A stretch of DNA of 20,119 bases from a virus. The notes beneath the pieces were generated by a model, which worked only from the letters and a program-made list of their open reading frames with translations, was not told the origin of the DNA and ran no database searches. The stretch covers positions 1-20,119 of IMG/VR virus record IMGVR_UViG_3300030090_000356; one strand, given 5' to 3'. How positions within the stretch are numbered: position 1 is the stretch's first letter; each line of letters starts with the position of its first letter. Made by a program: the position numbers and the translations under genes. Positions 3,118 through 19,806 of this stretch are shown one piece after another.

Positions 3118-6100
3118 GAATAACAGAAGATGAATATTGGTATTTTGTAGAATTAACACAAGCATATAATGGAAAAAGACCTAAAGAATATGATGAGATT
3201 CCTTATGTTGTAAATGGATTTGTTGCGACATTTATAGGTTCTGCAATGGCAGGTAATATTGGAGCACAACTACTTTTAGGAATTATTCTTACAGTTGTTT
3301 CAATATTATTAACACCAAAACCTAGAGCACCTAAAACTCCTCCTAGTCTTACAACTGCTGGTCAAACAGGTCCAAAAAGATTTGCTCCACAGACAGGTTT
3401 TAATTCAGTACAGGAACTTGCAAAACTTGGAGAAATAGTGCCTCTTGTTTTTACTAAGCAAGAAACAGAGATAATAGGAGATTATAAATATTATTATGGA
3501 GGTGTTCGTGTTAACACTAGATTGCTATGGTCGCAAATGATAAGTCTTGGCACAGGGCAACAGTTAAAGGCTTTATTTATGATCGGTTTGGCAGATTTAG
3601 CAGCTAAACCAGAATTTGCAGGTTATGCAATAGGTGATTTATTACTTAAAAATTATATAAACAAAAAATTAGCTTTATATATAATGACTGATGGTGGTAG
3701 ACCACAGGAAGGGCCAGAAAAGTATTCAGAAGGCACTTTGGAACCTCAAGTTGACAGAAATAACAGTAAGTTTAGAGATGTAATGTCTGTTGATTGGGAT
3801 GAACAGCTTGGCGCTATAGATACTATTGTCAGTAGTGCAAGAACTCCTAATACACAAGTGCAGTTTGGAGCGTATTCACCTATGCCAAACAGCATGAGAT
3901 ATAGGGTTCCTTACGAATTAGTTTTAAAACAGAAAAACTTAAAAAGCGATAATAAAAGAGATATAGATAAAAAAAGACAAAAGCTTAGAACTAATTTTCC
4001 AAGATATGCTTCGATAGTGAATTATAACGGTAGTGACACAAATAGAAATAGTTTTAATGTTGAAAAAAATAAAGATATACAGTACACCATTGGAGACATG
4101 GATAGCGAAACACAATATGGTGAAGAGTTTGACCCTTGGGGTGTAGAAGATGTTAAATCAGCCGTTAATGCTTCAAGAGAAGAATCAGATGATGCTATTC
4201 AAGTGGGTGAATCTTACTTAATAGGATCAGCTTTAGCCGTTTGCATTAAAAAAAGTAGACCTATATGGACACCAGAACATTATCAAGATTGTACTTTTAG
4301 AGTTGATACACCTGGCAAAATTGATGTAAGAAGCGGTACAGAGGGATTACAAGCTGCTCATTCAGGCTATCAATTATTAACATTACAAAAAGTTGCTATT
4401 GGAACTATAAGTAACAGTAAAGTTTGTGATGTTACAGAAATAGGTTTGAAGTCAAAAGTTTTTAAACAAGTAACAAGTTTTCCTAATGTAAATAGTCACC
4501 CTGGCGCTGTCGGCTGGAATGAACAAAATGCTGACACTACAGAAGGAGTTGTCAAAAGATATAACGATGATGACGGGAATATATCGCTTGGTGGAATGAG
4601 TAAATATCTTACTAGATATAGTTTTTTTAGATTACAGGCAAGAGTTGCTGGTGTTGGTGAAGCAGATTGGAATTATATAGACCAAGGCATACCTTTTGGT
4701 ATTAGAGGTAATTCACCGCAACCTCAATATAATTTTATAAGAATTAATCATCGTAGTACACCAAAGAAAGAATACGAATTTAGATTTTTACCTTTTCCAG
4801 GAAATTTAATAAAAAGAGATTTTGTTGATCGAAACAACCCTGTAAGAATATTAAGTTCTGCTGGAGAACTTCTTTCGTATGAGATTAGCCCAAATGAAGA
4901 AGTTTATAATATTTATTTTAAAGGATCTCAAGAAAAACTAAGAAGTGGTGATGTATCAAATACTGAATGGTATTTAGGTGATTTACCGACTGATGTAGAC
5001 GGAGGTAAAGTTAATAGGATTCTTGAGACTGTCGATGGAACGATACCACAATCTACGAGATGGATAGAAGTAGATAGAAAGACATCTAATATGGATGCAA
5101 ATTTAAGAAGCGAAGCTGTAATTTTTTATAAAACACAAAATTATGGTAGTACTTGGGTGTGGAGTACAAGAGATAGACCTCCTCATTGGTCAGCGTATTT
5201 TGGAAATAGAAATCAAACAATAAATGGTCCTTTAAGAAATCCAAATACCATCACTATTGGAGATCCTTATGTTCATCCTTATTATGAACCTGGGGATGGT
5301 TTTAGATATGGTGTTGGTCCACATATACAAACTTTTAGAGGTAAACCAAAGCACAGACGTGGTGAATATTACGGAATAATTAAATATGAAATGTTAACTC
5401 GTGACGTAGATCCTATCGTGCATGAAAATATTTCAACTTCAACAAGCGGAAACGGATCTGGATTAACTGTAAATATTAAAGTTTATTTAAGCCCTATTAA
5501 TAATCAATATGCTGCTGCAACTTGGGAGATTAATCAAAGAGGTAGTGGTTATAAAGATAGTGACAGGATTAGTATTCCAGCTACAGGAAATTTCCCAGGT
5601 AAAAATAATATTGATATAGTTACTGATTTTAGTGAATTTGTATCAGATCCTTGGCCTGAAGGTAAAAATTTAAACCCATTTGATGCTTTATCAGACTACT
5701 ATCAATACGATGCAGAACGCAGCAGTCATCAAGACGGACCAGAACATGAAATAGTTTATGTAAACGAACAAAGTAATTTAGGTAGTCCACCACCATACGC
5801 TGTAGATAATGCAGGTATTGCTAACGTTGCCTTACGTCTTAGCAGTTCTAAAGAATGGAATAGTTTTTCACAATTTTCTGCATATATTAAGGAGGGTATT
5901 AAAGTTGAAAACATAGCTAAAGGCAGACCATTTGATGTACCAATATTCGGGCCAACCAACTTATTTCCTGAAATAGTTTATGCCTTATTAACTGATAAAA
6001 AATTTGGGCTTGCAAATTCTATTGGAGTTAGTTCTGTTGATAAAGATAGAATGGTAACTGCTGCTAAATTTTGCGAAGCTAATAAATTTTATTGGGATGG

Positions 6101-10935: not shown

Positions 10936-13900
10936 ATGGCAATTCAAATTAAATTAAAGAATAGTGTTGTACAGGATAGTACTCCAAGTACATCTGATTT
11001 ACCTGCTGTAGGTGAGATAGCACTTAACGCAAATATAAATAGCATCGGTGGCTTTATGCGAGCCAGTGATAATACGATTGTAAAAATATTTGGTCCAGGA
11101 AGTTTATCAACACCCACTGCTACAACTACAGTTTCGGGTATATCTGAATTAGCAACTAATAGTGAGACAACAACTGGAACAGCTACAAATAGAGTTGTAA
11201 CCCCTGCTGGATTAAATGCGGTAACAGTTGCAGAACGTACCACATCAAACACTAACTATGTGGCAAAAGCTGGTAGTACTTTAACAGGTGTATTGACCAT
11301 GCCTAATGGTTCTAATTCTGCACCTGCTATAAACTTTGGAGATAGTGATAGCGGAATATTTGGCGGAACTAATACTGTCAGTTTGGCTGCTGGAGGAACA
11401 ACAAGATTAACTGCTGATACAGGAGTAAGTGTTGTTGGTACTTTAGCTGTTACTGGAGCTATAACTTCTACAAGTGATTTAACTATTGCAGATAAGATAA
11501 TTCATTCTGGCGATACAAATACTGCGATAAGATTCCCTGCTGCTGATACTGTTTCTGTTGAAACTGGTGGCAGTGAAGCCCTAAGAGTTGATAGTTCACA
11601 ACGATTGCTTATTGGATCGAGTACGAGCGTTGATGTCGCATCAAGTGCAGCCTCGTTACTACAAGTTGAACATACTTCGGGTAACATATCTGCTGCTTTT
11701 TATAGCACTGTAAATTCTACAGGACCATCAGGAACTCTTGCTTTAGGACACGCTAGAGGAAGTGCATCAGGTATTCTTTTAGAAGATGACGCTATGGGTC
11801 ATATTCGTTTTGCTGGGGGTGATGGAGTTGACCTTGAAACAATAGGAGCGCAAATAGCTGGTGAAGTAGATGGCACACCTGGAGCTAATGATATGCCAGG
11901 TCGTTTAGTATTCAGCACAACGGCTGATGGTGCTGCTACTCCTACCGAAAGATTAAGAATAGACAGTACAGGAAAGGCTACGTTTACTGTTGATGCAAGT
12001 ATAAACAGCGTAAATATTGGTAAAGGTGCAAACTCTGTTGCTGGTAACACTGTTCTTGGAGATAGTGCTTTAGATGCTTCTGTTACTGGAGGAGATAATA
12101 CTGCCATTGGGCAAGCTGCACTAACAGAGTTAACATCAGGTTCACATAATACTGGTGTTGGGCATGATGTCCTTAGAAATACTACAACTGGTTCTAGCAA
12201 CACAGCTTTAGGTTCAAACGCTTTAGATAACAATACAACAGCATCTAATAATACTGCGGTAGGTAAAGATGCTTTAGAAGTAAACACAACTGGAGCTTCA
12301 AACACTGCTGTTGGTAGTGAAGCATTAGCGGATAACACAACAGGAAGCTTTAACGTTGCTATTGGTAGACAGGCACTAAAAGATAACACAGAAGCAAGTA
12401 ACAATATTGGTATCGGCAGAGCAGCGTTAGGAGCGAACACCACTGGAACGCAGAATATAGCTATAGGTGCTTTAGCTTTAGACTCTAATACAACAGCAAA
12501 CAACAACACAGCAATAGGTTATAACTCACTGGGGCTTAATACAACTGGAGCTCAAAACGTAGCTATGGGTGCTTTCGCCTTAGACGCAAACATAACTGGA
12601 AGTAATAACACTGCTGTAGGATATCAAACATTAACAACAAACACAGCGACTAATAACACTGCTTTTGGTTACCAGGCATTAAGACTTAATACAACAGGTA
12701 CAGCAAACACTGCTATAGGTTTGCAAGCACTGAACGTCAATGTAAATGGAACTGAAAATACTGTTATAGGACACCAAGCTTTAGATGCAAATACGTCTGG
12801 TGCAACAAACACTGCTGTAGGAGCTTTTGCTTTAGGAGCAAATACTACTGCAAGCGACAACACTGCCGTTGGTTATAGAGCTTTATTAACAAACACAACT
12901 GGAACTCGAAACGTAGCTGTGGGTTCTGGTGCGTTAGATGCCAATACAACTGCTGATAATAACACTGCTGTTGGGGACGAGGCTTTAGGAGCTAATACCA
13001 CAGGAGCAGACAATGTGGCTATTGGTCGCAACGCTATGATAGCTAATACAACAACAAGCAATAATGTTGCTGTTGGTAGAAGTGCATTACAACAAAATAC
13101 AGCAGATGACAATACTGGCATTGGTCGAGATGCTTTAGCAGTAAACACAACTGGCACAAGAAACACTGCTGTGGGTGGTCTAGCCTTAGATGCTAATACA
13201 ACTGCGGATAACAATACTGCTGTAGGTTATGGTGCTTTAAGTTCAAATACTACAGGGACTAATAATACTGCTGTTGGACAAGCTGCTTTAGCGGTAAATG
13301 TTTCTTCAGACGGTAACACTGCTGTTGGAAGAGCAGCGTTAAATGTCACTACAGGAGATAGTAATACTGGTGTTGGTAATGGTGCGTTAGAAAGTAATAC
13401 AAGTGCATCTAATAATACTGCTGTAGGAAAAAATGCTTTAAATAAGAACACAACAGGAGCAACAAATACAGCTTTAGGAACAAACTCTTTACATGAAAAT
13501 ACCACTGGATCGGACAACGTAGCTATTGGTGTTGGTGCTTTAGATGCAAATACCACAGCAGATGACAATGTTGGTATTGGTAAAAATGCTTTAGGAGTAA
13601 ACACAACTGGAACTACAAACACAGCTGTAGGTGCATTTAGTTTAGATGCGAACACAACAGCTGATGGAAATACAGCTTGTGGTTCTTTTTCTTTAACAGC
13701 TAACACAACTGGAACAGAGAATAACGCTTTTGGTAAAAGTGCTTTAGGAGCAAACACTACAGGAAATTATAATAATGCTTTTGGTAGAGAAGCTCTAAGA
13801 CAAAATACAACTGGACTAAATAACACGGCATTTGGACACGAAGCTTTAGAATCTAATACAAGTGCCAGTAATAACACTGCTTTTGGTTATGAAGCAGCTT

Positions 13901-15753
13901 CACTTTCAACAACACCAGATAATATAACAGCCATCGGTAAAGGTGCTTTAAGAAATAATACAGGTGGAACTGATACAACAGCAGTAGGAACTAACTCTTT
14001 ATTTAACAATACTTCTGGTGATGCTAACTGTGCTTTTGGTAGATCAGCATTAAATGATAATACTACTGGTGATAATAACTGTGCGTTTGGTAAAAACAGT
14101 CTGGCAGATAATACAACTGCAAGTGGTAATTCAGCTTTTGGTCATTATGGTTTATCAGTTAATACAACTGGAATCTATCTAACTGCTGTAGGATTTAAAG
14201 CTTTAACTGCAAATAGCACTGGAACTAGAAATACCGCTGTTGGATATGAAGCTGCAACAGACATTACCACAGGTGCATCTAACGTTGCTATAGGTAGTTT
14301 TTCATTATATAAAGCCACTACAGCAAACAATAATACCGCTGTCGGTCATACCGCTTTAGAAAACACAACAGGTGCAGAAAATACTGCGGTGGGTGCTAGT
14401 TGTATGAACTCTAACACTACAGGAGATAGTAATACCGCTGTAGGTAAATCTGCTTTATCGGCAAACACAAGTGGAACTCAAAACGTAGCTGTAGGTACTT
14501 TAGCTTTGGATGCTAATACTACTTCTGGAAAAAATACTGCAATTGGTCATGGATCTTTAGGATCAAATACTGGAGAACAAAATACAGCAGTAGGTAGGTT
14601 TGCTTTAGGTAATAATTCAACTGCTTCAAACAATGTAGCTGTTGGTTTTAATGCGTTACTAGAAAATACAACTGGAACAGATAACGTAGCAGTAGGTACT
14701 CAAGCGTTAGATGCAAATACTACTGCAAGTAATAATACAGCAATCGGAGATGTATCCCTAACTGCCTGTACTACAGGAGCAGACAATACTGCTGTAGGAG
14801 CAAGTTCTTTAAGTTCATTGACCACAGCCAATTTTAATACTGCTACTGGTACAAGAGCTTTAAACGGACTTACAACTGGTAGTGGTCATTGTGCGTTTGG
14901 TGAAGATGCTTTAGTTGTTGCCACAACAGGAGCGCAAAATAACGCTATGGGTCAAAGTGCTTTGAGAAGTTGTACTACAGGAAGTTATAACGTAGCAATA
15001 GGAGCTAATAGTTTAGCTGCAAGTACAACTGCTTCAAATAATACTGCTGTAGGTCATTCCAGTTTAAACGACCTTACAACTGGACACTCTAACGTAGCGG
15101 TAGGAACTAATGCTTTAGATACGCTAACAACTGGTGTACAAAATACTTGTCTAGGTTATGCAGCTGGTGATGAGATAACAACTGGTAACTACAACACTTG
15201 CGTAGGTAATAACTCTGGTCAAGACATTACCAATGGTTTTCATAACGTTGCTATTGGACACTCTACTGATACTAATAACGTTGATAGGTCAATCACTATT
15301 GGTACTGATCTCACAGGTAAAGGTTCAGATTACATAACTTTTGGAAGAAACTCGGTTGGAGTTGTTTATAATCAATACAGTTCAAATGCAACTTGGACAA
15401 GAGATTCAGATGAAAGACTTAAAAAAGATATAAATACTAACACTGATTGTGGTTTAGATTTTGTAAATGATTTAAGAACAGTTACATATAAATGGAAAGC
15501 ACCTTCAGAAGTGCCTTCAAATTTCCCAAGTTATGACAAAGATAACTCAACACCAAGCAGTAATAAGAAAATGTATGGATTTATAGCTCAAGAAGTTAAA
15601 GCAGTTATGGATAAACATAATATTACTGATTTTAATGGTTGGACTTGTCCTGATGATGGAATACAAGGTATTTCATATGAAATGTTTGTTATGCCATTAG
15701 TTAAGGCAGTACAAGAATTATCCGCAAAAGTCACAGCCCTCGAAGCAGGGTAA
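10936..15753 (+). CDS. Long tail fibre with 64 17-residue repeats and S74 intramolecular chaperone
   Basis: A 1605-residue fibre. Residues 1-60 (IQIKLKNSVVQDSTPSTSDL ...) form an N-terminal attachment domain. Residues about 95-365 are beta-rich modules (DSGIFGGTNTVSLAAGG, RFPAADTVSVETGG, ERLRIDSTGK) common in phage fibres. Residues 371-1452 are 64 tandem units with consensus N-T-A-V-G-x-x-A-L-x-x-N-T-T-G-x-x. The 'A-[VI]-G-x-x-A' core resembles the YadA-type trimeric head motif, so a trimeric beta-roll shaft is likely (inference). Residues about 1485-1605 are a Peptidase_S74 domain, with SDERLKKDI carrying the Ser1491/Lys1496 dyad, YGFIAQEVKAV, and a C-terminal coiled coil (LVKAVQELSAKVTALEAG). 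S74 domains fold the trimer and then cut themselves off just before the serine, here freeing about 115 residues. It is probably the main receptor-binding fibre. Confidence 0.87.
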   Translation: MAIQIKLKNSVVQDSTPSTSDLPAVGEIALNANINSIGGFMRASDNTIVKIFGPGSLSTPTATTTVSGISELATNSETTTGTATNRVVTPAGLNAVTVAERTTSNTNYVAKAGSTLTGVLTMPNGSNSAPAINFGDSDSGIFGGTNTVSLAAGGTTRLTADTGVSVVGTLAVTGAITSTSDLTIADKIIHSGDTNTAIRFPAADTVSVETGGSEALRVDSSQRLLIGSSTSVDVASSAASLLQVEHTSGNISAAFYSTVNSTGPSGTLALGHARGSASGILLEDDAMGHIRFAGGDGVDLETIGAQIAGEVDGTPGANDMPGRLVFSTTADGAATPTERLRIDSTGKATFTVDASINSVNIGKGANSVAGNTVLGDSALDASVTGGDNTAIGQAALTELTSGSHNTGVGHDVLRNTTTGSSNTALGSNALDNNTTASNNTAVGKDALEVNTTGASNTAVGSEALADNTTGSFNVAIGRQALKDNTEASNNIGIGRAALGANTTGTQNIAIGALALDSNTTANNNTAIGYNSLGLNTTGAQNVAMGAFALDANITGSNNTAVGYQTLTTNTATNNTAFGYQALRLNTTGTANTAIGLQALNVNVNGTENTVIGHQALDANTSGATNTAVGAFALGANTTASDNTAVGYRALLTNTTGTRNVAVGSGALDANTTADNNTAVGDEALGANTTGADNVAIGRNAMIANTTTSNNVAVGRSALQQNTADDNTGIGRDALAVNTTGTRNTAVGGLALDANTTADNNTAVGYGALSSNTTGTNNTAVGQAALAVNVSSDGNTAVGRAALNVTTGDSNTGVGNGALESNTSASNNTAVGKNALNKNTTGATNTALGTNSLHENTTGSDNVAIGVGALDANTTADDNVGIGKNALGVNTTGTTNTAVGAFSLDANTTADGNTACGSFSLTANTTGTENNAFGKSALGANTTGNYNNAFGREALRQNTTGLNNTAFGHEALESNTSASNNTAFGYEAASLSTTPDNITAIGKGALRNNTGGTDTTAVGTNSLFNNTSGDANCAFGRSALNDNTTGDNNCAFGKNSLADNTTASGNSAFGHYGLSVNTTGIYLTAVGFKALTANSTGTRNTAVGYEAATDITTGASNVAIGSFSLYKATTANNNTAVGHTALENTTGAENTAVGASCMNSNTTGDSNTAVGKSALSANTSGTQNVAVGTLALDANTTSGKNTAIGHGSLGSNTGEQNTAVGRFALGNNSTASNNVAVGFNALLENTTGTDNVAVGTQALDANTTASNNTAIGDVSLTACTTGADNTAVGASSLSSLTTANFNTATGTRALNGLTTGSGHCAFGEDALVVATTGAQNNAMGQSALRSCTTGSYNVAIGANSLAASTTASNNTAVGHSSLNDLTTGHSNVAVGTNALDTLTTGVQNTCLGYAAGDEITTGNYNTCVGNNSGQDITNGFHNVAIGHSTDTNNVDRSITIGTDLTGKGSDYITFGRNSVGVVYNQYSSNATWTRDSDERLKKDINTNTDCGLDFVNDLRTVTYKWKAPSEVPSNFPSYDKDNSTPSSNKKMYGFIAQEVKAVMDKHNITDFNGWTCPDDGIQGISYEMFVMPLVKAVQELSAKVTALEAG
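12046..15291 (+). repeat. 64 tandem 17-residue (51-base) repeats in fibre 2
   Basis: Residues 371-1452 divide exactly into 64 units: 58 of 17 residues and six of 16 (units 12, 21, 26, 46, 50 and 64). Glycine at unit position 5 is present in all 64. Asparagine at position 1 is present in 60, the exceptions being units 38, 39, 43 and 57. Many units alternate between an ALDANTTA type and an NTTGT type, a two-unit (about 102-base) higher-order period. Confidence 0.92.
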
Positions 15754-16562: not shown

Positions 16563-16686
16563 TTTTTACAGGAATATTTCTATCAATAATTCCATACATG
16601 ACATAAAGTGGTGCTAATCCTATAATCAGGAAAAGTACCATAAATGTTATTGGTACGCTTGCTTTAATTAGTGCTTCTCTTATCAT
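16555..16686 (-). CDS. Putative 43-residue membrane microprotein (antisense, uncertain)
   Basis: The 122-base gap between the + genes ending 16562 and starting 16685 is open on the minus strand from ATG (16686-16684) to TAG (16557-16555). The peptide begins MIREALIKASVPITFMVLF and has one clear hydrophobic segment (residues about 11-33) with basic residues before it and DRN after it, a plausible single-pass membrane protein. Its start codon overlaps the + strand ATG at 16685 head to head, and there is no Shine-Dalgarno. It could be chance, but the membrane-like composition and the otherwise empty gap make it worth listing. Confidence 0.35.
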   Translation of the reverse strand: MIREALIKASVPITFMVLFLIIGLAPLYVMYGIIDRNIPVKTN

Positions 16687-16903
16687 GTTTCAAAAAATAG
16701 CTAATGTTTTAAGTATTATCTCATTTGTAATGGTAGCTTCAATGAGTGGTGGAGCGTACTTTGGTTACAAGTATGTAACTTCTGAAAACTTTAAAGCAAA
16801 AGTAATGAATGAAATACTTGGTAATGTTTCTGGAATGATGCCAAAGATGTTAGATCAAGGCTTACCTAAGATGACAGGTCCATCATTACCTCTTAAAAAA
16901 TAA
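16685..16903 (+). CDS. Small membrane-anchored protein, function unknown
   Basis: A 72-residue protein with one N-terminal transmembrane segment or uncleaved signal anchor (residues about 7-28, VLSIISFVMVASMSGGAYFG). An amphipathic helix follows (SENFKAKVMNEILGNVSGMM), then a proline/lysine tail (GPSLPLKK). It is the first gene of a tightly packed group of four. The next start codon comes directly after its stop (TAAATG). Small single-span proteins near the end of late operons can be holin, spanin or assembly factors; none of these families is recognisable here. Confidence 0.65.
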   Translation: MFQKIANVLSIISFVMVASMSGGAYFGYKYVTSENFKAKVMNEILGNVSGMMPKMLDQGLPKMTGPSLPLKK

Positions 16904-16993: not shown

Positions 16994-17157
16994 ATTGCTG
17001 GCACTGCAAAACTGAACTTATTTGGGGTGCTGATGCAGATATAGAAGAGGACTTTCAACCTGTTTTATATCAAGAATACTCAATGGTAAGTAATTTTTCT
17101 TGCCCTAAATGTGATTCATATGTAGAAGTCTATAAACGAAGAGATGCCTACGATTGA
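16990..17157 (+). CDS. Small four-cysteine zinc-ribbon protein
   Basis: A 55-residue protein from ATG 16990 to TGA 17155-17157. It begins MNCWHCKTELIWGADADI and has a second cysteine pair in NFSCPKCDSYVEVY. C3/C6 and C38/C41 form a CxxC-x31-CxxC zinc-ribbon (rubredoxin-like knuckle) arrangement, with beta strands after each pair. There is no membrane segment, so it should be cytoplasmic. It might bind nucleic acid or a protein partner; ribbons this small are also seen in transcription modulators. The ATGA overlap upstream and a 14-base overlap with the gene at 17144 place it firmly in this operon. I recall similar WHC-x-T-E-L-I-W-G proteins from marine cyanophages (unverified). Confidence 0.75.
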   Translation: MNCWHCKTELIWGADADIEEDFQPVLYQEYSMVSNFSCPKCDSYVEVYKRRDAYD

Positions 17158-17728
17158 TATACCTCGTATAAATATAAACAAAGTTCAAATACACGAAATA
17201 CCCGTATGGAAAACTGATATACAAACATTAAATAATATAAGTAAACCTATAGTTGATATCCCTGGTTGTGTAAGAGTACATAGAAATAATCTTACAAGTC
17301 TTATTGATAGTGATAAAGATGAATACGGCACATATACAGAATGTGGTAATTTCAGTATTCCTAGTTTTGAACCTTTACAGTATAACCCCAACGAATTTGT
17401 ATATACGCAATCAGAAACCCCCCAAAATCAGGAACAAGAATTTGTTCAGCCTACAGTAGAACCGCCAAAATACGAACCAAAAAAGAAAAAAGATGAACCG
17501 CTTTTCGTTGAGTGCCCTGGACCAAATGACCAAAGGGTAGGCCAATATGCTTCAGAGTTTAAATTAGAACGTGTTATAGGACATAAAAGAAGCGAAGATG
17601 GTAGTGAATGTATAACCTTGTATGAAAGTACTAAATTCATCGAGCAATACATACCGAATCCTTTTGCTTATAAATTAGTAGGTAGACTAGTTGGAAGGGG
17701 TCTATCTACTTTTTTATTTTTAAGGTAG
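17144..17728 (+). CDS. Conserved-looking phage protein of unknown function, possibly structural
   Basis: A 194-residue protein. It has an N-terminal segment (DIPRININKVQIHEIPVWK) with short strands, then a motif with VDIPGCVRVHRNN, and CGNFSIPSFEPLQYNPNEF. A proline/lysine/glutamate-rich linker follows (residues about 90-120), then a compact segment, ECPGPNDQRVGQYASEFKLE and ERVIGHKRSEDGSEC. The last 20 residues (KLVGRLVGRGLSTFLFLR) are basic and hydrophobic and could touch the membrane. The ATG is inside the zinc-ribbon gene (14-base overlap). The end of the gene also encodes an intrinsic terminator stem (17678-17721), so the C-terminal residues are constrained by the RNA structure or arose by its insertion. 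No function is recognised. Confidence 0.7.
   Translation: MPTIDIPRININKVQIHEIPVWKTDIQTLNNISKPIVDIPGCVRVHRNNLTSLIDSDKDEYGTYTECGNFSIPSFEPLQYNPNEFVYTQSETPQNQEQEFVQPTVEPPKYEPKKKKDEPLFVECPGPNDQRVGQYASEFKLERVIGHKRSEDGSECITLYESTKFIEQYIPNPFAYKLVGRLVGRGLSTFLFLR
17678..17721 (+). terminator. Intrinsic terminator overlapping the end of the + gene
   Basis: GTAGGTAGAC (17678-17687) pairs with GTCTATCTAC (17700-17709) over ten base pairs with one G-U wobble and a 12-base loop. It is followed directly by TTTTTTATTTTT (17710-17721). This is a good rho-independent terminator for the whole + late region. It lies inside the last codons of the 194-residue gene, whose stop is at 17726-17728. Confidence 0.75.
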
Positions 17729-17739
17729 AATGTTCATCC

Positions 17740-17771
17740 GTAGATAAGTTTAATACCCGTGACTTGTCTAC
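17740..17771. other. Second hairpin in the convergent gene junction
   Basis: GTAGATAAG (17740-17748) pairs with CTTGTCTAC (17763-17771), nine base pairs with one G-U wobble and a 14-base loop. The right arm contains the stop codon of the minus-strand gene. No good T-run follows on either strand, so it may act as a transcript-end protector or weak terminator. Its left arm can also pair with the right arm of the upstream terminator (TATCTAC, 17703-17709). Confidence 0.45.
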
Positions 17772-18544
17772 TTAAATTTGTGAGTATGTGGGATGACTTG
17801 ATTTGGAGGTGGTTGAACAATGACCCCCTCACATAATTTTGCGAAGTTACTTTTAGGATCGAAATATATTCCCTTCAACATCAATTCTCCACAATTTTTC
17901 AATCTAGCTATTTCATAATTTAGCAGCTTTGCATTTAATTCTTGTTTTTGTAAATTTATCTGTGTGTTAGCTGCATCTAAACAAGAGTCTTGAAATCTAT
18001 TGTCTAGTGGAATATTGAATGTAAGTGCAAATCCAAAGTTTAATCCTAAAGAATCTTTGTTACCACTGTAGTTTTCTTGATAGTAAAGTACATTTCCTGG
18101 ATTATCAGGCACTCCATCATCGTTTGCGTCTGTTGGATCATAAACAGGTGTGTGATAAATATAATCCTGTGGTCGCTTTTGGTTGAATGATGTAGTAACA
18201 AACGGACTAACTGTCATTTGTGGTCCAGAACACTTGATATTATTTCCGTATGTATTTTCTACCATTGGTCCACCCAAAACTTGTGTAGCAAAGTTTGATA
18301 CGGAACCTGACGCAGATGCGGAAGGAGCAGCAGTATTTGAGGTGTTAGCTAATACAGGATTGCCTAGCAGACTTATTGCGAGAAGATAGTTGTGGTATCT
18401 GTGACGCTTGTGCTTTGAATGGTACGAGTTATGTCGGTCACGGATTCCATTCCAGGTGCTTGATAAACTTCTGTAAATTGAAAAGCATCTCCAACATTTG
18501 ATTGAGTCCAGTTTGGTCTTTGATCTAAATTTAATCCCTGCCAT
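17768..18544 (-). CDS. Secreted protein with calcium-loop motif; start codon unclear
   Basis: The longest frame from an ATG (18544) is 258 residues, but its first 50 or so overlap the next gene in another frame and are H/K/R/W-rich, so they are probably not real. The true protein looks as if it begins just before KRHRYHNYLLAISLLGNPVL (around 18400), a normal signal peptide with likely cleavage after A66. No ATG, GTG or TTG exists there; an ATA at 18376-18374 overlaps the upstream TAA. The mature part has NTSNTAAPSASASG, four cysteines (C105, C188, C218, C238), a loop DANDDGVPD (residues 139-147) matching the D-x-[DN]-x-D-G-x-x-D calcium motif of thrombospondin-3/dockerin type, a helix (QINLQKQELNAKLLNYEIAR) and a proline/histidine tail. 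It is probably periplasmic or surface-exposed; function unknown. It is the last gene of the minus operon. Confidence 0.65.
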   Translation of the reverse strand: MAGIKFRSKTKLDSIKCWRCFSIYRSLSSTWNGIRDRHNSYHSKHKRHRYHNYLLAISLLGNPVLANTSNTAAPSASASGSVSNFATQVLGGPMVENTYGNNIKCSGPQMTVSPFVTTSFNQKRPQDYIYHTPVYDPTDANDDGVPDNPGNVLYYQENYSGNKDSLGLNFGFALTFNIPLDNRFQDSCLDAANTQINLQKQELNAKLLNYEIARLKNCGELMLKGIYFDPKSNFAKLCEGVIVQPPPNQVIPHTHKFK

Positions 18545-18798
18545 GTATGCGTAGTTCCGTTTATTGTTTCACTAACTGAGGTAGCTGCTGGAGTGATAGA
18601 AGATCCGTCATGCTGAATCCCTGATCCTGTGACGGAGTAAAGAAACCCAGAATTATATTCTGTTGTTCGTATAGTCTCTGTAATATTTGTGGTAGTTTCG
18701 GTTCGGCTGGTGGAACTACCCTGCGTAAAATTAGGTATAACTGGCACAGCGTAACAAGGAGCAGATATAACAAAGCCAAGAAGAAGAAGCCTCCTCAT
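18373..18798 (-). CDS. Secreted protein with signal peptide, function unknown
   Basis: A 141-residue protein. It has a clear signal peptide, MRRLLLLGFVISAPCYA, with likely cleavage after A17; the cysteine is not in a lipobox. The mature part is threonine/serine-rich beta (SSTSRTETTTNITETIRTTE), then GFLYSVTGSG (residues 51-60), a W-containing stretch, VGDAFQFTEVYQAPGMES (102-119) and a beta tail ending DTTTIFSQ. Its start overlaps the upstream gene's stop by ATGA (18798-18795). It shares landmarks with the upstream 161-residue protein (SAPxYA signal end, YS-x-x-G, G-[ED]-A-F-x-F), suggesting distant paralogy. It is exported to the periplasm or beyond; I do not recognise a characterised family, though similar proteins are familiar to me from cyanophage genomes (unverified). 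Confidence 0.75.
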   Translation of the reverse strand: MRRLLLLGFVISAPCYAVPVIPNFTQGSSTSRTETTTNITETIRTTEYNSGFLYSVTGSGIQHDGSSITPAATSVSETINGTTHTWQGLNLDQRPNWTQSNVGDAFQFTEVYQAPGMESVTDITRTIQSTSVTDTTTIFSQ

Positions 18799-19280
18799 TC
18801 GATAGTAAGATCAACGACAAACTGACCTGTCATCACGATACCCGTTCCTGTTCCTGGTGTCATTGTAATAGTGTGATTATCTATTGCTACTGCTGCTGTT
18901 CCTACACTTCCAGCAGAAGTTGAGGTTAGATCACTGAAGTTTGGCACAGTGCCTACTGTAACTGCACTACCTGGTGTGGCATCTCCTTCTAGAAAACTTG
19001 TAGAAAAACTAAACGCTTCGCCACTGGTCGCTTGCGTGGCAGAGGGAAACGAAATACTCGGAACCCCCGAAGTCGTAGATCCAAAACCGCCTATTGTAGC
19101 TGCTGAGTTAGAGTCAACCGTGGTAACATTGTTACCCGAAATACTGTACGAAGAGCCAATTTTATCAGCCGTACTAGCTGCCGAAAGCGATTCAAACTTT
19201 ACGCTGGAGGATATGGAATGATTCATGTCCGCATAAACTGGTGCGGAGGCAAGCAATAAAAGAGGAAGTAGCTTTTTCAT
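18795..19280 (-). CDS. Secreted serine/threonine-rich protein, function unknown
   Basis: A 161-residue protein with a textbook signal peptide, MKKLLPLLLLASAPVYA, with likely cleavage before D18. The mature part begins DMNHSISSSVKFESLSAAST, then SSYSISGNNV (residues 43-52), glycine/serine-rich beta stretches, GEAFSFSTSF (87-96), and ends with MTGQFVVDLTIE. It has no cysteine and low charge, and is probably a beta-sandwich-like exported protein. It is joined to both neighbours by ATGA overlaps (19280-19277 and 18798-18795). Codon use matches the neighbours, so it is not a recent foreign insert. Its role may lie at the cell envelope (adsorption blocking, lysis, virion decoration), but this is inference. 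Confidence 0.75.
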   Translation of the reverse strand: MKKLLPLLLLASAPVYADMNHSISSSVKFESLSAASTADKIGSSYSISGNNVTTVDSNSAATIGGFGSTTSGVPSISFPSATQATSGEAFSFSTSFLEGDATPGSAVTVGTVPNFSDLTSTSAGSVGTAAVAIDNHTITMTPGTGTGIVMTGQFVVDLTIE

Positions 19281-19528
19281 TTGACTTTAACGTTAGTGTC
19301 TTTGCTGTCTAATTTAGCAGTGTTTCCAGGTTTCTTTTTGTTCACACTGATACCATAAGATCCTAAAACGCCACTGGTCAAGCCGGCTAAAAACGCTCCA
19401 TCATTACGAATTTTATCCATATATCCAAGAGTCATCATTGCAAGCGACCAGCAAAGAATCATAAATCGGACAGCATGACCAAAGATTTCTCCCCAATCCG
19501 TGCCTTCTTTTTCTTCTTGTTCTTCCAT
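19277..19528 (-). CDS. Two-helix membrane protein, holin-like topology
   Basis: An 83-residue protein and first gene of the minus operon. The N-terminus is acidic (MEEQEEKEGTDWGEIFGH), followed by hydrophobic helix 1 (residues about 19-37, AVRFMILCWSLAMMTLGY), a short basic loop (DKIRND), hydrophobic and glycine-rich helix 2 (about 44-62, FLAGLTSGVLGSYGISV), and a lysine-rich C-terminus. Two helices with a charged tail is the layout of small class II holins, but also of many other small phage membrane proteins; no endolysin is visible nearby. A nested inverted repeat lies just upstream and could fold in its mRNA leader. It has no Shine-Dalgarno. Its stop overlaps the next gene's start (ATGA). 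Confidence 0.65.
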   Translation of the reverse strand: MEEQEEKEGTDWGEIFGHAVRFMILCWSLAMMTLGYMDKIRNDGAFLAGLTSGVLGSYGISVNKKKPGNTAKLDSKDTNVKVK

Positions 19529-19538
19529 ATAAAGAAAA

Positions 19539-19590
19539 CTGCCTTAAGGTATCTAGAGATAGTAGCTGACCACTACTTTTTGTAAGGCAG
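19539..19590. promoter_or_regulatory. Nested inverted repeat upstream of the secreted-protein operon
   Basis: CTGCCTTA (19539-19546) is exactly complementary to TAAGGCAG (19583-19590). Between them AGTAG (19561-19565) pairs with CTACT (19573-19577) and is followed on the + strand by TTTT. CCTTAAGG (19542-19549) is itself a palindrome. The structure lies 10 bases before the ATG of the minus-strand membrane gene. It may be an operator, a leader that controls translation, or a weak terminator. Confidence 0.5.
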
Positions 19591-19592
19591 CT

Positions 19593-19621
19593 ATGACAAA
19601 CGTAGCAAATATTGATATGTT
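19593..19621 (+). promoter_or_regulatory. Candidate sigma-70-type promoter
   Basis: ATGACA (19593-19598), a 17-base spacer, then TATGTT (19616-19621) fits a moderate -35/-10 pair pointing at the small + gene at 19645. Each hexamer has mismatches, and AT-rich DNA produces such matches by chance. Confidence 0.25.
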
Positions 19622-19644
19622 GTAAAGTATTAGTACTTAATGTT

Positions 19645-19806
19645 ATGTTAAAAATCTTAAAACCCTTGCTTTTGCAATTCTTTTCTACGACTGCTGTAAA
19701 GCGTCTGGTAGTAGATTTGCTTCGTGCAATCTGTAAACAGACAACGAATACATTGGATGACCGTGCAGTAGATATTTTGGAGCAACAATTATTTCCTAGA
19801 CTTTAG
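19645..19806 (+). CDS. Small basic/hydrophobic protein, function unknown
   Basis: A 53-residue protein from ATG 19645 (an upstream in-frame ATG at 19612 would add 11 residues). The N-terminal helix MLKILKPLLLQFFSTTAVKR is amphipathic or membrane-associated. A second helix (RLVVDLLRAICKQ) follows, and then NTLDDRAVDILEQQLFPRL. I remember similar LKPLLL...T-x-N-T-L-D-D-x-x-V proteins from cyanophages, without an assigned function (unverified). There is no Shine-Dalgarno. It is convergent with the next minus gene, and their ends overlap by 11 bases (19796-19806). Confidence 0.6.
   Translation: MLKILKPLLLQFFSTTAVKRLVVDLLRAICKQTTNTLDDRAVDILEQQLFPRL

Follow-up and report, generated by a model that had tools for sequence, protein, structure and literature searches.

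Cyanophages of three types share a conserved set of genes that we interpret, with a probability of about 0.55, as a late lysis or egress module acting on the cyanobacterial envelope. The set comprises genes B, P, C and D plus A, F and E. It occurs in T4-like and T7-like cyanophages and in a siphovirus-like one, the latter being the window analysed here. The tail genes of this 20,119-bp virus record are of siphovirus type, and their closest annotated relatives occur in S-CBS1, S-LBS1 and Mic1. What the sequence itself provides is the content and order of the genes, the predicted signal peptides, the start of D within C, the late-promoter cores of T4-like relatives, and a genomic slot in which phages without the module have endolysin cassettes. 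The original prediction had suggested lysis, a block to superinfection or decoration of the virion as possible roles. Lysis is now favoured because of the genomic position and the replacement by endolysin cassettes in related phages, and the other two are placed lower. To our knowledge, the host-lysis genes of the commonest ocean cyanophages are largely unassigned. A module present in three phage types, with an endolysin cassette in others, offers a short, testable list of genes and joins about seven families without known function into one system.

Gene layout in the window

16685-16903, plus strand: gene F, 72 aa, one transmembrane segment (TM); phrog_568, E 6e-17, PHROG label 'plasmid stability'; syntenic
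17144-17728, plus strand: gene A, proline-rich, convergent with D; phrog_570, E 1.3e-28
17677-17710, plus strand: hairpin and U-run of a terminator downstream of gene A; -16 kcal/mol, z -3.6
17768-18544, minus strand: gene D, 258 aa from the ATG at 18544; predicted mature part approximately 17768-18346
18373-18544, minus strand: C/D overlap, 172 nt, D being read in frame -1 relative to C
18373-18798, minus strand: gene C, 141 aa, predicted to be exported, DUF6322
18795-19280, minus strand: gene P, 161 aa, predicted to be exported, distant paralogue of C by profile comparison
19277-19528, minus strand: gene B, small membrane protein of 83 aa with DUF6450; candidate for a holin-like component
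19645-19806, plus strand: gene E, 53 aa, in divergent orientation to B; phrog_2738, E 2.8e-18; syntenic

All four minus-strand genes that had been predicted are present as ORFs, and since each of them matches a phage family without assigned function (PHROG; Pfam for DUF6450 and DUF6322), they are not chance ORFs. ATGA junctions of 4 nt link B to P (19277-19280) and P to C (18795-18798), as proposed, but C and D are joined by the long -1 frame overlap instead. On the plus strand, A and F converge on D, and E diverges from B at the same position as in P-SCSP1u. The four genes had been likened to an independent module; because A, F and E belong to the same module, they do not form a stand-alone system. 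The strong terminator expected at one border exists, but it reads on the plus strand and follows gene A. At the other border, the supposedly structured divergent region (19529-19644) folds within chance (z -0.78). Neither sigma-70-like nor terminator-like sites are in excess in the region, and an Rfam search gave no match. Elsewhere in the window, positions 10936-15753 encode a 1605-aa protein that has many NTAVG/NTTG-type repeats and, at its end, the chaperone-of-endosialidase domain PF13884 (E 3.5e-13).

Distribution and gene order

A tblastn search against 50,697 phage records yielded 412 with C, 435 with D and 402 with P, nearly all of them named cyanophages and the remainder 'marine' or 'uncultured'. 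The architecture hardly varies across 320 IMG/VR loci, so that the homologues are syntenic; the refuting outcome named in the original prediction, scattered homologues without synteny, did not occur. Where the flank permits, C is accompanied by D in 283/283 entries and by A in 239/242, counts that are partly non-independent since some contigs were picked up by two scans. P is present in all window-type (60/60) and T4-type (56/56) loci and in none of 59 podovirus-type loci. Most of the 15 loci from the scan with A that are without D end a few bases past A; in two (L258 and L263), a further 613 and 1144 bases follow.

T4-like phages have the order P-C-D (T4-GC 237, 236, 235) convergent with A-F-B (T4-GC 234, 414, 218), and T7-like phages have A-B-C-D on one strand (P-SSP7_042-045; P-GSP1, S-TIP37, S-SBP1). 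In P-SCSP1u, A is convergent with D-C-B and E is divergent, which is the layout of the window minus P and F.

A cellular origin was rejected, the 10 matches in 84,980 genomes lying on what appear to be contigs of phages in MAGs, single-cell assemblies or contaminated assemblies. Cyanophage-like D genes in assemblies named as unrelated bacteria or archaea (L337-L346; e.g. a 188-kb contig, Nonlabens xiamenensis) suggest phage contamination or binning errors. One 51,137-bp record (G001; L352-L354) has the cassette twice (1665-2084 and 39559-39996), about 38 kb apart and each copy preceded by a near-identical 65-aa gene; it is likely a composite of two related phages that exceeds one genome length. 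We found no paper that names DUF6322, DUF6450 or these PHROG numbers, and none that treats the homologous genes as one module.

Predicted proteins of the module

Gene B encodes a protein that matches DUF6450 (PF20048; 31.6 bits versus a Pfam cut-off of 25) and phrog_721/phrog_21865, and that is 89% identical to its P-SCSP1u counterpart. Of the two helices originally proposed, one is a clear hydrophobic segment; the second is weak in the window, and two TM are annotated in PSSP7_043, the homologue in P-SSP7. Small and with one or two TM, B nevertheless matches no holin family in PHROG or Pfam. C belongs to DUF6322 (PF19847; E 8e-34, 116.6 bits versus a cut-off of 30.6) and to phrog_650 (E 8.5e-50). 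P matches phrog_564 (E 1.2e-42) and scores only 13.4 bits against DUF6322, below the cut-off of 30.6. Judged from a direct profile match (probability 95.5, E 1.6e-8), C and P are distant paralogues.

Signal peptides had been proposed for three proteins. They are clear on P (MKKLLPLLLLASAPVYA) and C (MRRLLLLGFVISAPCYA), but in D about 50 residues precede a signal-like segment that ends in LLAISLLGNPVLA and extends to approximately residue 66. Together these segments support the predicted export to the envelope. Judged by inspection, none of P, C and D has a lipobox at its cleavage site. D matches phrog_848 (E 4.3e-78) and also phrog_1755. All 61 sequences compared share its cysteines 105, 188, 218 and 238, which is consistent with an oxidising compartment.

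In relatives, A is proline-rich with a C-terminal TM and a lysine-rich tail. The window version lacks the C-terminus through an apparent deletion of about 230 bp, located near 17659 where a short 'tcct' match occurs, so that TM and tail are gone and the gene runs into the terminator hairpin; this is either a real deletion or an assembly artefact. The product of gene F/T4-GC 414 (phrog_568) is a small one-TM protein of the module, and its 'plasmid stability' label is probably misleading.

Gene D starts within gene C

Reading by eye of window-type and T4-like loci revealed no usual start codon directly before the D signal peptide, and a non-canonical start beside it was rejected for want of a consistent candidate codon. 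An ATG lies 57 codons before the C stop in the window type and 55 codons before it in most T4-like sequences, its A being the third base of the codon preceding a conserved tryptophan of C. All 86 T4-like sequences and all 90 window-type sequences in which the codon is complete have an A at this base. They include 49/49 serine codons, whereas only 25% of serine codons in T4-like C genes end in A. Over the last 55 codons of C, 87/88 and 83/85 distinct sequences have no stop codon in the -1 frame, as compared with about 2% and 8%, respectively, expected from synonymous shuffling. In one locus (L177), C and D are separated by what appears to be an HNH endonuclease gene in opposite orientation (5451-5985), and D begins at an ATG of its own (5986), right before the signal peptide. 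The conserved ATG, the open -1 frame and this arrangement argue that D is an independent, predicted exported protein that usually starts inside C. A programmed frameshift from C into D was rejected, since inspection revealed no slippery heptamer and the conserved ATG accounts for translation. Synonymous diversity along C is lower in the overlap in T4-like loci and noisy in window-type loci. Podovirus C/D overlaps are arranged differently, and in P-GSP1 (L171, 3878-4594) D and E are fused into one ORF. The start of D is thereby corrected for a gene found in hundreds of genomes.

The genomic slot and its endolysin-bearing counterparts

In T7, the holin occupies the slot between tail fibre and small terminase, and in P-SSP7 the module sits between tail fibres and small terminase. 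Compared with P60, this lysis slot is occupied by the module in P-SSP7, P-SCSP1u, S-TIP37 and S-SBP1; the corresponding slot of P60 contains an endolysin (phrog_181, E 2.8e-31), a coiled-coil protein with an N-terminal TM and another TM protein. S-CBS1 and S-LBS1 likewise have endolysins after their tail genes, and none of A, B, C and D was found in these three endolysin-bearing comparison phages. Conversely, PF00959, PF01510, PF08291, phrog_181 and PF01832 gave no match in six module-bearing genomes or contigs (two window-type, one podovirus-type, one T4-like, P-SCSP1u and P-SSP7), the IMG/VR contigs among them being possibly incomplete. P60, S-CBS1 and S-LBS1 matched PF00959, PF08291, phrog_181 and PF01832; PF01510 matched in cellular controls only. 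The single SLT match lies in an internal virion protein of P-SCSP1u. Syn5 is an exception, both module and endolysin being absent from its slot. In T4-like phages, the module is located near regA and nrd genes or near photosynthesis genes, with no adjoining tail genes.

P-SCSP1u proteins with hydrophobic segments above threshold are A, B, C, D, three virion proteins, a primase/helicase and a packaging protein, the segment of the latter likely reflecting a mis-called start; hence, outside the virion, its hydrophobic or exported proteins are essentially A to D. Close to the small terminase of P60 (L360, 34061-34324), Syn5 (L359, 36392-36652) and S-SBP1 (L173, 4440-4694), we also observed a coiled-coil protein with an N-terminal TM (phrog_12220), possibly an inner-membrane spanin-like protein.

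Late-promoter cores in T4-like relatives

The sequence NATAAATA is the published late promoter of T4-like cyanophages (PMC2984593). Among distinct T4-like loci, 60/66 have a TAAATA core in the 150 nt upstream of P (about 10 expected) and 58/63 have one in that distance upstream of B (about 8 expected). The excess is small upstream of C (9/74 versus 1.8) and A (12/74 versus 4.8), and absent upstream of F. The cores upstream of P and B suggest that both convergent operons are probably late in T4-like phages, a result without direct bearing on the phage type of the window.

Proposed function and alternative explanations

We infer membrane topologies for A and B, a physical interaction of the products and a function in lysis, and propose the following model. 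B would oligomerise in the inner membrane and take the role of a holin. A and F would reside at the inner membrane, with the proline-rich part of A in the periplasm. P, C and D, exported by Sec, would open or weaken the wall and the outer membrane and thus replace endolysin and spanins. It is a guess that C, D and P form oligomeric outer-membrane pores. With lower probability than a lysis or egress role in general, the module may represent endolysin-independent lysis by an inner-membrane protein, a proline-rich periplasmic linker and exported β-rich proteins, specific for the picocyanobacterial envelope and used by podo-, myo- and siphovirus-type cyanophages. Searches of PHROG and Pfam speak against lysis in that no lysis, holin or spanin family is matched in the module. 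The same databases revealed no peptidoglycan-cleaving domain in A to F, and the breakage of the wall is therefore not explained. The Syn5 slot, the location of the module in T4-like phages, the small number of endolysin-bearing comparison phages (three) and the weakness of the structure models likewise count against lysis.

The structure models of C and D are too weak for assigning a mechanism. C (pLDDT 61) is predicted with two long, paired strands of 23 residues, and D (pLDDT 48) with short strands followed by a 42-residue helix. No PDB relatives of either protein were found by sequence or by significant fold match. The fold matches of C include β-barrel pores, but they are non-significant (best E 0.086), and assignment to a pore fold was rejected. 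These strands and matches, together with several exported proteins, their inner-membrane partners and the phage-encoded CsgGF pores reported elsewhere (PMC9004378), would be compatible with an outer-membrane channel or secretion device that moves molecules through the envelope during infection without lysing the cell, a role like that of pelagiphage CsgGF. We consider this rather unlikely, given that Pfam gave no match to CsgG or CsgF and that the replacement by endolysin cassettes would be left unexplained.

The products are predicted to be exported, are cyanophage-specific and are common to phages competing for the same hosts, as would suit superinfection exclusion or a remodelling of the host surface that shields the infected cell from other cyanophages. 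Expression as late as the T4-like promoter cores suggest would be too late for this purpose, the fact that nearly all minimal genomes keep the genes points to a core function, and the replacement in the slot would again find no explanation; such a role is unlikely. Least probable are virion-associated or virion-decorating proteins, which the proximity to tail genes in the window and in T7-like phages and the late-promoter cores in T4-like relatives would permit, but with which signal peptides (incompatible with cytoplasmic assembly) and the service of one gene set to three virion types disagree. The S-SM1 virion list contains 41 proteins; labels in the S-SM1 record were dropped as evidence of virion content because T4-GC15 carries the label 'hypothetical' in it although the protein was detected in the virion.

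Comparison with known systems

The proposed lysis or egress module shares with the holin-endolysin(-spanin) cassette of the T7/P60 type the slot between tail fibre and small terminase and one or more small TM proteins. It differs from that cassette in having no endolysin domain and no holin or spanin sequence match, and instead several proteins predicted to be exported by Sec. Pelagiphage CsgGF, for which a role in lysis was proposed (PMC9004378), resembles the module in consisting of phage-encoded exported envelope proteins. The host group is different, however, and homology to CsgG or CsgF is not detectable with Pfam. Closest are T4-GC 218, 234-237 and 414 and P-SSP7_042-045, which are homologous to the window genes, occur in the same or a related order, and have been annotated singly as hypothetical or 'plasmid stability'. 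To these T4-like and T7-like carriers the window adds a siphovirus-type genome in which E is divergent.
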